Source: Neptuniibacter caesariensis (GTDB taxonomy: Bacteria > Pseudomonadota > Gammaproteobacteria > Pseudomonadales > Balneatricaceae). From it: a stretch of DNA of 64,000 nt. The position numbers and the translations under genes are program-made. The notes under the pieces are model-generated. The model did no database searches. It saw only the letters and a program-made list of their open reading frames with translations, and was not told the origin of the DNA. The first letter of the stretch is position 1; every line of letters starts with the position of its first letter. The stretch lies in the NCBI RefSeq assembly GCF_000153345.1, contig NZ_CH724126.1, positions 154,774 through 218,773 of the forward strand, given 5' to 3'. Positions 7,618 to 11,282 of this stretch are shown here, in pieces.

Positions 7618-8274
7618 ATGTCTTCAGATCAAAGAATTGTTCACTATAACTCCGCGCGATTTAATAAAAGCGCGGCAAAATTACATCAGTGCCCGGAAGA
7701 TATTGGCGCTGAAGTGGCGTTCGCGGGTCGCTCAAATGCGGGTAAATCCAGCGCCATTAACACACTGACCAACAACGGCAAGCTGGCCCGCACGTCAAAA
7801 ACCCCCGGCCGAACTCAGCTCATCAACTTTTTTGATCTAAACCTTGAAGGTGTTCGTCTGGTCGATCTACCTGGTTATGGTTATGCGAAAGTACCTGTAG
7901 AGATGAAAGTTCACTGGCAAAAGCACCTGGGTGAGTATCTGGAGAAACGCCAGTGCCTTCAGGGGGTGGTATTGGTGATGGATATCCGCCACCCAATGAA
8001 AGAGTTTGACCAGATGATGGTCGAATGGTGCGAAAATTCGCAAATGCCGCTACACGTTCTGCTAACAAAAGCGGATAAACTGAAAAAAGGGCCCGCCCAA
8101 TCGACCATGCTAAAACTCCGTAAAGAGTTACAGGCCGTGCTGGGAGATCTGGTCACCGTACAAACCTTTTCTGCTTTGAAGAAACAAGGTGTAGATCAGC
8201 TGCGTAATCGCCTGGATCATTGGCTTCTGCCTGAAGAGACGGACTTTGAGAGTGAAGTAATAACAGAAGAATAA
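7618..8274 (+). CDS. engB: Ribosome biogenesis GTP-binding protein EngB (YihA/YsxC)
   Basis: EngB is an essential TRAFAC-class GTPase acting in late large-subunit ribosome assembly. The 218-aa protein has the P-loop GRSNAGKSS (residues 37-45), the G2 threonine in KTPGRTQ, the G3 motif [11 protein letters not shown], the G4 motif TKAD and the G5 serine-alanine. The closing acidic tail is common. It is divergent from the cytochrome c4 gene and convergent with polA, with a small-RNA-like gene filling the 3' gap. Confidence 0.97.
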
Positions 8275-8385
8275 AAGAAAGCCCTGGGAAACTTAGGAAG
8301 GGGAACTGTCAATTTCTCAGGGCTTTAACGCATGCTTGTTGTAAAGAGCCACAACCATGGCTAGATGAACGTATACGTGACTCTT
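8272..8385 (-). ncRNA. Candidate sRNA in the ErsA/Spot 42 position (engB-polA gap)
   Basis: The minus strand reads as a compact sRNA of about 114 nt. It starts six bases after a sigma-E-type -10 element. A 5' hairpin pairs AAGAGTCAC (8385-8377) with GTGGCTCTT (8352-8344), nine continuous pairs with one G-U. A linker follows, then a terminator-like stem pairing AAAGCCCTG (8326-8318) with CAGGGCTTT (8286-8278), extended past one mismatch by GAAA/TTTC, and ending in TTTCTTTTAT. Its 21-base loop (8312-8292) holds the pyrimidine-rich CAGTTCCCCTTCC, a plausible seed against Shine-Dalgarno regions. Spot 42 of E. coli and the AlgU-dependent ErsA of P. aeruginosa lie in this same gap. Homology to either was not tested; the identity is inferred from position, promoter and fold. 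Confidence 0.7.
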
Positions 8386-8390
8386 AAAAA

Positions 8391-8417
8391 GTAGACCTGC
8401 TTTGAAAATGAAAGTTC
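8391..8417 (-). promoter_or_regulatory. ECF sigma-E/AlgU-type promoter of the candidate sRNA
   Basis: On the minus strand GAACTT (8417-8412, preceded by GGG) is followed after exactly 16 bases by TCTAC (8395-8391). The known AlgU (sigma-22) consensus is GAACTT-N16/17-TCTGA, so this differs at one position of the -10 element. The predicted transcript start is near 8385, where the first base of the 5' stem lies. Envelope stress is the expected inducer. Confidence 0.7.
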
Positions 8418-8424
8418 CCCAGAT

Positions 8425-8456
8425 AGCTCAAAAAATATACAAACATTTTTTGAGCT
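8425..8456 (-). terminator. A/T-rich hairpin downstream of polA
   Basis: A perfect 12-bp inverted repeat (AGCTCAAAAAAT with ATTTTTTGAGCT, loop of eight) lies 57 bases beyond the polA stop. It may end the polA transcript and insulate the sRNA promoter just beyond it. The stem is A/T-rich and no clean U tract follows, so the call is tentative. Confidence 0.5.
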
Positions 8457-8513
8457 TCTGATATCAGGTACTTAGAAAGGAATGCCAAGTCACAATAGCT
8501 TTTGCAACCCTTA

Positions 8514-11282
8514 TTAGTGCGCCTGCTCCCAATTTTCACCTACACCCGCTTCCACCAGCAAAGGGACATCAAGGTCGGCCGCTGTAGCCATCTTGTCTTT
8601 CACCGCTTCAACAAAGCTATCCACCTGTGTATCACGAACCTCAAAGACCAGTTCATCGTGAACCTGCATGATCATACGCACATCAAAGTCAGACTCTGCC
8701 AGCCACTTATCCACAGTCACCATTGCCCGCTTAATGATATCTGCTGCTGTCCCCTGCATCGGCGCGTTGATAGCAGTACGTTCTGCAGCCTGACGACGCA
8801 TTGCGTTACGGGCTTTAATCTCAGGCAGGTACAAACGTCGACCAAACAAGGTCTCAACATACCCCTGTTCCTGAGCCTTAGCACGGATATCATCCATGTA
8901 GTGCTGAACACCTGGGTAGGTTTCAAAGTAGTGCTCGATATACTGCGCGGCATCCTTACGCGCGATACCCAGCTGCTTCGCCAGACCAAAAGCTGACATT
9001 CCGTAGATCAGGCCGAAATTGATCGCTTTAGCACTACGACGCTGATCATCACTAACCTGATCCAGCTCAACTTTAAACACTTCCGCTGCGGTAGCACGGT
9101 GAATATCCGCACCTTTGGAGAATGCATCCAGCAGCCCCTGATCTTGTGACAGGTGCGCCATAATGCGCAATTCAATCTGCGAATAGTCCGCCGCGACAAC
9201 CTTATAACCTTCAGGCGCGATAAACGCATGACGAATACGACGCCCCTCCTGGGTACGCACAGGTATATTCTGCAGGTTTGGATCGGTAGAAGATAACCGG
9301 CCTGTTGCTGTCACTGCTTGATGATAAGAGGTATGTATACGCCCAGTACCCGGATTAATCATCAGCGGCAGTTTATCGGTATAGGTGGATTTAAGTTTGC
9401 TCAGGCTGCGGTGTTCCAGAATCAGCTTCGGTAGCGGGTAATCCAGCGCTAGTTCCTGTAATACCTCTTCCGCAGTGGATGGCGCCCCTTTAGGCGTCTT
9501 CTTGATAACTGGAATGCTCAGCTCTTCAAAAAGGATCTGCTGGAGCTGTTTAGGTGAAGCCAGATTGAACTCTTTTCCCGCAATATCATAGGCCTGACGC
9601 TCCAGTTCAACCATACGCTCTGCCAACTCAATACTCTGTTCTCCCAGCATCGAGGCATCCACTAAAGCCCCGTTTCGCTCGATATGTGATAGCACAGGGA
9701 TCAGCGGCCTTTCGATATCATTAAAAACAGAGGTCAGGGTTTCATCTTTGCTAAGTTGAGCATTAATTGCCTGATGCAGGCGCAAGGTGATATCCGCATC
9801 TTCAGCGGCATAAGGCGCAGCCTGTTCCAATTCAATCTGATTAAAAGTCAGCTGTTTCTTGCCCTTACCGGCAATATCTTCGAACTTAATCGTTTTAAGG
9901 CCCAGATAACGATCTGCCAGGCTGTCCATATCATGACGGGTAGCCGTAGAGTTCAATACATAAGATTCCAACATCGTATCGAATTCGATTCCGGTCAGCT
10001 CAATGCCATAGCGTGCCAGAACATTCATGTCGTACTTAAGATGCTGACCCACTTTTTTATGATCGCTACTTTCCAGCAGCGGTTTCATTTTTTCCAGCAG
10101 TGTTTCACGAGTGATCTGCTCAGGCGCTCCCATGTAGTCATGGGCAACGGGAACATAAGCCGCTTTCCCTGGTTCAATCGCAAAAGAAACGCCCACCAGT
10201 TCCGCCTCCATGTAGTTGAGGCTGGTGGTTTCCGTATCGAATGCGAATAACTCAGCTGTGGATAACTTTTCCAGCCACTGATCTAAAGTTGCTTCATCCA
10301 GTACCGTGTCATACTCAACATCAGAGGGTGCTTCGGGCAGCTCGGGCTCGTCATCAGATGCATCAGTGCCTGAAGCTGCAGACTCACCCGACTCAAGCTC
10401 TTTAACCCAGCTGCGAAATTCAAACTCTTCAAACAGTTCCAGAAGCTGCTCTTTAACCGGCTCAGGTTTGACAAAATCCTCTACCGACTCCTGTAGCTCA
10501 ACATCGGTTTTAATCGTAGCCAGTAGATAGGAAAGGTCAGCTGCTTCGCGATTGTCTTCGAGCTTTTTAGCCATGCTTTTCGAACCACGGAACCCAAGAT
10601 CGGCAATCTTATCCAGATTTGCGTAAAGGTCTTTCAAACCGCCAATCCCTTGCAGCAACGCCAGCGCGGTTTTCTCTCCGACACCTGGCACGCCCGGAAT
10701 GTTATCGACCTTATCTCCCATCAATGCCAGGAAATCGATAATCAACTCAGGCGGTATACCAAACTTATCTTTCACCCCTTCAACATCCATTACCGTATCG
10801 GTCATGGTATTGATCAACGTCACATGCTGATCCACCAGCTGTGCCATATCTTTATCACCCGTTGAGATCAACGTAGCGATACCTTTAGCACTGGCCTCAC
10901 GGGCCATCGTGCCGATCACATCGTCAGCCTCTACACCCTCTTCCACAATCAGCGGGAAGCCCATCGCTTTGATAATCTTATGGATAGGCTCGACCTGACT
11001 TCGAAGATCATCCGGCATGGGTGGACGCTGGGCTTTGTACTCACTGAAGATTTCGTCACGGAACGTTTTGCCTTTGGCATCAAAAATGACCGCAACCGGG
11101 CTTTCCGGATACTGTTTAATCAGACTTTTCATCATGGAAGTCACAACACGGATCGCTCCGGTTGGTATTCCAGCCGAATTTCTTAGGTCCGCTTGCTGTG
11201 AAGCAAAGAACGCACGGTATAAATAAGAGGAGCCGTCGACTAAAATGAGAGGTGAAAGGGTGGCTTGGCGCTGTTCGCTCAT
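8514..11282 (-). CDS. polA: DNA polymerase I
   Basis: PolA fills gaps and removes RNA primers in replication and repair. The 922-aa protein is full length with three domains in order: a 5'-3' exonuclease (about 1-300), the 3'-5' exonuclease domain (about 330-520, acidic FDTETTSL retained) and the polymerase domain. Polymerase motif A (DYSQIELRI), motif B ([14 protein letters not shown]) and motif C ([10 protein letters not shown]) are all intact. It converges on engB; the DUF2782/thrB pair is divergent on the other side. Confidence 0.98.

Follow-up and report, generated by a model that had tools for sequence, protein, structure and literature searches.

A predicted small RNA gene of Neptuniibacter caesariensis at the place of ErsA, with an RpoE/AlgU-type promoter and a porin start site as its likely target

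The window considered here, a stretch of 64,000 nucleotides (64 kb) from Neptuniibacter caesariensis, contains two convergent genes with a gap between them. The gene engB (yihA/ysxC; an open reading frame with 249.5 bits to TIGR03598) occupies 7618..8274 on the plus strand, and polA (an open reading frame with 565 bits to Pfam DNA_pol_A) occupies 8514..11282 on the minus strand, an arrangement that is also that of polA-spf-yihA in E. coli. Read 5' to 3' on the minus strand, the gap holds GAACTT (8412..8417), a spacer of 16 nt, TCTAC (8391..8395), a predicted transcription start at 8385, a 9-bp hairpin whose foot is that same nucleotide, a linker, and a terminator. GAACTT is assigned as a -35 element of the RpoE/AlgU type by pattern, matrix score, and the rpoE promoters of relatives, and TCTAC as the -10 element by pattern and matrix score. 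All that the initial annotation had reported is present: these promoter elements, the hairpin at the 5' end, and a terminator whose loop is C/U-rich.

The predicted transcript, about 113 nt long (8273..8385), lies on the same strand as polA, its upstream neighbour. The first hairpin consists of the arms AAGAGTCAC (8377..8385) and GTGGCTCTT (8344..8352), which form nine pairs. It is followed by a conserved linker, AACAAGCATGCGTT (8327..8340), that takes part in no pair when 22 aligned sequences (alignment A1) are folded together, and by the terminator stem, made of AAAGCCCTG (8318..8326) and CAGGGCTTT (8278..8286), with CTTTT (8277-8273) directly 3' of it. The terminator loop contains a seed, GUUCCCCUUCC / GTTCCCCTTCC (8296..8306), whose core is nearly invariant in A1, and within the loop UUCCCCUUC (8305-8297) is the complement of GAAGGGGAA, the Shine-Dalgarno sequence of the gene for a major-type porin. 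Between polA and the promoter there is a perfect 12-bp inverted repeat, AGCTCAAAAAAT/ATTTTTTGAGCT, at 8425-8456, where the polA transcript may end.

The RNA is preserved to an extent that its surroundings are not. It is identical to that of G010 at 114 of 114 positions (8273-8386), while the engB and polA DNA of G010 is only 78-80% identical. In five other Neptuniibacter the identities of the RNA are 108/114, 109/115, 97/117, 99/115, and 102/117; over the six genomes compared, engB DNA is 73-78% and polA DNA 77-80% identical where these genes are present in the locus, and the sequence from the polA stop to the RNA start can hardly be aligned. A comparison of gaps finds the promoter elements constant, with drift in the spacer and on the polA side. 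Of 57 genomes, 13 have the region by a blastn search with 161 nt, counting the one it came from: 10 of the 11 Neptuniibacter and three others. An exact pattern of 21 bases from the RNA occurs in eight contigs (four Neptuniibacter, three Marinobacterium, and one Pontibacterium granulatum). Promoter and RNA are intact in two genomes with a different neighbourhood: G002, which has another gene where polA would be, and G006, in which no polA is seen and an open reading frame of 221 codons separates the RNA from engB.

Shuffled versions of the RNA fold equally well in only 3 of 200 cases (z -2.9). Folded by itself, the window RNA has a minimum-energy structure (-31.2) that lacks the 9-bp hairpin that had been proposed for its 5' end, and the best fold that contains the hairpin (-29.7) is weaker by 1.5 kcal/mol. 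The hairpin is nonetheless recovered when RNAalifold is given the 22 sequences of A1: the consensus has both hairpins where they were placed above, the first with seven of its nine pairs and the second, the terminator stem, with 9. The 5' stem covaries. Among 12 sequences, 96.2% of the cells of the 5' stem are paired and four of its nine pairs have both bases changed. The score for covariation is above that of all 500 shuffles and all slid versions, a level that related sequences can reach without structure, and one of the five covariation measures, further pair types, is not above shuffles (143 of 500 as high). The RNA scores 120 bits with a covariance model (R1) built from the 22 sequences, of which it is itself one. 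Since the RNA is conserved beyond engB and polA, the hairpin covaries, and the unit persists without polA, 8273..8385 is almost certainly a small RNA gene. Gene position, promoter class, and the two-hairpin body all hold up in relatives, and conservation of promoter and stems, one of the points on which the initial annotation had staked its reading, leaves that reading standing.

What drives the gene? The 64-kb window has two occurrences of GAACTT and TCTAC separated by 15 to 17 nt, where 0.08 would be expected, and none of 100 shuffles had two. A matrix built only from the rpoE promoters of relatives, the pattern behind which fits 22 of 30 rpoE upstream regions across the order, gives the promoter in the window a score that is equalled or exceeded in 2 of 1000 shuffles of its own gap. 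All ten other Neptuniibacter have GAACTT or GAACTA-N16-TC upstream of rpoE, 126 to 155 nt before it. A simple scan of 8150-8600 for sigma-70 promoters and terminators found nothing, under a loop limit of 8 nt that excludes the terminator of this RNA. To judge by its promoter, then, the small RNA is very probably under the control of a sigma factor of the RpoE/AlgU type, and the promoter type in common with rpoE suggests that it answers to envelope stress.

A genome search did not find rpoE itself in the assembly of N. caesariensis. This might be taken to refute the promoter assignment, and I set it aside because a run of 391 N adjoins rseA in that assembly and because rpoE is above the cut-off in 54 of the 57 genomes searched, including all ten other Neptuniibacter; the absence is better read as an assembly gap. 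In L230 (C3 of this genome) the 391 N connect rseA with the beginning of a frame that weakly resembles a pyrophosphatase, and the junction is perhaps a misjoin that hides rpoE. The gene that precedes rpoE in G007, which I take to be nadB, has its like at the start of a contig in N. caesariensis. Also in G007 (L206, 9438-10271), an anti-sigma protein has RseA_N and MucB_RseB_C domains in a single chain of 277 residues.

The second GAACTT-N16-TCTAC of the window is at 6738-6712 on the minus strand, about 60 nt before the likely start (MKKFGLML) of a gene that a DSBA domain match identifies as dsbA. It is probably a further RpoE promoter. A site of at least 11 bits stands upstream of dsbA in 30 of 58 loci, several of which are copies of one genome.

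The promoter can be followed well beyond the genus. The gene engB was found in 111 of 116 genomes of the family and 186 of 194 of the order. Within the part of these loci that was fetched, and taking one polA-engB gap per genome, 82 of 121 gaps have a promoter of at least 11 bits (a cut-off of my own choosing), against 5.1 expected from shuffles; 61 of the 86 gaps within the family are positive, and 21 of the 35 outside it. The 39 gaps without a scored promoter (for example L029, L036, L048, L105, L107, L109, L110, L123, L150, and L179) include some that fall below the cut-off and yet have GAACC or GAACG variants (L009, L012, L025, L045) and two that keep a GTTCCCC terminator (L103, L131). Loci without polA, among them L222, L223, and L225, were left out of that count. 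Forty such loci were tried separately and, the engB end being unplaceable in 14, 26 were counted: seven of these engB-side regions reach 11 bits, against 1.3 expected, and one of the seven, L164, begins GTACTT and has no RNA-like stretch. In some gaps the whole unit of promoter, RNA, and terminator appears, by eye and by score, to be repeated in tandem, three times in L155 (G294) and twice in L177 and L057.

The RNA itself is harder to follow. Among 67 sources, R1 has 21 matches at E up to 1, with 46 sources giving none. Fifteen of the matches are below 0.01, and 12 of these are new, the window, L031, and L034 being training sequences or close copies of them.

Two known small RNAs lie in this very place. 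The one with the greater claim to kinship is ErsA (RF01719, Pseudomon-1), first reported by Ferrara 2015. At six loci that I take to be Pseudomonas-like because RF01719 matches them (L142-L147), ErsA sits in the polA-engB gap and is read in the direction of polA, as is the RNA in the window. These loci have a GAACTT/GAACTA promoter as well, with TCAGA and a spacing of 17 rather than 16, and a C-rich terminator loop, but the body of the RNA differs in sequence. The initial annotation had called the RNA a counterpart of ErsA. Position and promoter class speak for that; the ErsA covariance model does not. RF01719 (gathering score 50 bits) has no match in 8200-8540 at E up to 10, and none in any of the 20 loci of the family searched at E up to 0.1 or of the 7 in another set, own and Neptuniibacter loci included, whereas it finds all six of the control loci L142-L147 at 127-139 bits. 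In the order mates L064, L071, and L155 it has matches below its cut-off. In the other direction, a model widened to 32 family sequences (R2) finds all six ErsA loci at the place and on the strand given by RF01719, with 16.8-19.9 bits and E-values of 0.02-0.13. The E-values are rough and the six loci are interrelated, and R2 also matches L167 at the same level, overlapping the end of polA. This marginal match is a hint of common descent and no proof of it. Rfam as a whole is no more forthcoming: at gathering score it has no match to the window, and at E up to 10 its six weak matches to the gap are to unrelated families only.

The other is Spot 42 (spf, RF00021), found between polA and yihA/engB in L181. 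Spot 42 serves carbon metabolism under CRP, from a sigma-70 promoter; the simple scan of 8150-8600 in the window sees no sigma-70-like site. A title in a reference list speaks of CRP as a repressor of spf. RF00021 finds the spf of E. coli (L181, 122.8 bits) and nothing in the window, so that of the proposed likeness to Spot 42 only the position remains.

In Pseudomonas, ErsA is reported to be controlled by AlgU and to repress algC with the aid of Hfq, and also to repress, again with Hfq, the porin gene oprD (PMC7264166). The pairing of ErsA with amrZ is described as involving an internal region, nt 26-56, with no need of Hfq (PMC5819304), and anr is a further target to go by the title of a paper. 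A text search of the literature with a piece of ErsA sequence gave no match, and a search on this gene or its kind found no paper naming Neptuniibacter.

The most likely reading of the locus is that Neptuniibacter has, at the place of ErsA, a hitherto unannotated small RNA gene with a promoter of the RpoE/AlgU type, and that the RNA works as a brake on a porin. I propose that under envelope stress RpoE/AlgU would transcribe the RNA from GAACTT-N16-TCTAC independently of polA, and that the RNA would stop at a terminator of its own, which presents UUCCCCUUC in a large unpaired loop. The loop would pair, presumably helped by Hfq, with the Shine-Dalgarno sequence GAAGGGGAA in the mRNA of a porin of the trimeric type (Porin_4) and, in this species, with that of an outer-membrane protein of the Gcw_chp type. 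Pairing there would block entry of the ribosome, shut off translation of both proteins, and so relieve the envelope. That the RNA acts in trans, depends on RpoE/AlgU, and blocks porin translation in the manner of ErsA is, I judge, distinctly probable, and about as much can be said for the narrower claim that the porin is its main target by way of the terminator loop.

The case for the porin begins with the core of the loop, UUCCCCUU, which is the complement of AAGGGGAA. The genome of N. caesariensis has 19 sites of the form AAGGGGAA-N2-13-ATG, against 11 for a reversed control pattern. Many of the 19 ATGs open no long frame, and two open outer-membrane proteins, Porin_4 and Gcw_chp. A porin of the Porin_4 type is found at E 1e-30 in 61 of the 116 family genomes and in none of the other 55. 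GAAGGGGAA stands at the porin start in 10 of the 11 Neptuniibacter, the start of the eleventh not being seen; it is in 28 of the 29 starts seen among the best 30 porin matches of the family (which include 9 of those 10 Neptuniibacter) and in 17 of 20 further starts; the three starts without it belong to extra copies in genus g11. A second porin copy in G010 is without it. Gcw_chp does not stand up as a conserved target, for it appears at E 1e-15 in only two of the 11 Neptuniibacter, this one and G002; the nearest copies of the two genomes both have GAAGGGGAA, and a second copy in G002 has not.

Pairing was also measured directly, in 39 genomes. The longest perfect complement between RNA and porin mRNA falls on the Shine-Dalgarno sequence in 35 of them, the exceptions being G005, G069, G025, and G066, and is 8-12 nt long in 31. 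The mean length is 8.4, against 6.2 for shuffled RNAs, in a set of related genomes where a script placed the RNA ends and several stretches were given a length of 180 nt. Genome by genome, 0 to 18 of 100 shuffles match the length of the complement in the 31 good genomes. Of 91 control start regions in the genome of N. caesariensis, none has a complement of 9 nt. Duplex energy is too blunt to serve as a target score, as 4 of 100 control start regions equal the porin.

Might the RNA be real and RpoE-dependent, and the porin match nothing but a by-product? The main targets would then be others (biofilm, sugar, or cell-wall genes), reached through the linker AACAAGCATGCGTT or by general anti-Shine-Dalgarno pairing, and the porin would keep GAAGGGGAA for reasons of its own. 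I consider this rather unlikely, though it has facts to draw on. In G058 the porin keeps GAAGGGGAA with no such RNA gene in the 68-nt polA-engB gap, and in G005 it keeps GAAGGGGAA though the loop of the RNA has mutated to UUACUCUU; it follows that the site is not kept only for the small RNA. In the 22 sequences of A1 the linker has changed about as little as the loop. The start of mraY offers the RNA a complement of 10 nt, and AAGGGGAA occurs at mraY and at other genes that have nothing to do with the envelope. ErsA, too, is reported to have targets other than porins in Pseudomonas, algC and amrZ for example (PMC8395346). What tells against a by-product is that the GTTCCCC/CCCCTT loop recurs across genera although the rest of the RNA has drifted. 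In G022, moreover, the complementarity stays with the seed even in the 5' half of the RNA: the match is at RNA position 17 and still gives 10 nt, so the seed has been moved or doubled.

Spot 42 encodes a peptide, SpfP, and it is natural to ask whether the RNA in the window has a dual function of this sort. It contains an open frame for 13 residues, MVVALYNKHALKP (8317-8358, minus strand), and from ATG to TGA the frame is open, with mild changes only, in 7 of the 11 Neptuniibacter sequences of A1. A peptide is nevertheless quite improbable. The ATG has no evident Shine-Dalgarno sequence before it, the other sequences of A1 lack the ATG, have the frame stopped or altered, or read on past this stop, and the hairpin arm and linker that the frame overlaps account for its conservation. 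In the E. coli locus L181 (NZ_CM135959.1), RefSeq has a coding sequence named after Spot 42 at 2146-2193, inside spf.

That there is no small RNA gene at all, the element being a product of 3' processing or a terminator of polA or engB with a promoter match by chance, has in its favour that it lies between convergent genes with a tail reaching the stop codon of engB, and is scarcely credible given that no T-run follows the stem on the plus strand, that the unit survives without an adjoining polA in G002 and G006, and that a conserved promoter and 5' hairpin would not be expected of it.

Returning to the RNA as a porin brake under RpoE/AlgU, it would be in familiar company. RybB, MicA, and VrrA are sigma-E-dependent RNAs that repress porins by pairing near their start sites. 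They would work alike in answering to an envelope-stress sigma factor and acting on porin starts, but they come from different loci and pair by their 5' end or an internal region, unlike the RNA in the window, which would use its terminator loop.

ErsA is known from Pseudomonas, and the RNA of Neptuniibacter escapes the Rfam model. If marine relatives of Neptuniibacter do have a counterpart, control by envelope stress at this locus would seem to predate the known family. Taking the evidence jointly, I raise tentatively, at a little short of an even chance, the idea that the polA-engB gap across the order harbours one ancient RNA gene driven by RpoE/AlgU, and that ErsA is its branch in Pseudomonas. 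The body of the RNA would turn over almost completely, and the gene could multiply in tandem or part from polA; what would stay fixed is the promoter, the link to engB, and a C-rich loop that matches the ribosome site of the major porin. A counterpart of ErsA here would also show how locus and promoter together can reveal fast-evolving small RNAs where sequence search fails, and the porin start site offers a concrete target for experiment.

Outside Pseudomonas I have met with a single experimental hint, sRNA4758272 of Alcanivorax dieselolei, which was reportedly seen by RNA-seq beside a gene for an engB-type GTPase and is reported as conserved in Alcanivorax, with two copies in some species (PMC9788540). 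Its other neighbour there is an antiporter gene, not polA.

The seed is not always confined to the terminator. In genus g13 (L040, L108) CCCCTT is found in both hairpins, and in genus g12 (L098, L099, L101) it is found in the first hairpin only, with a different terminator loop.
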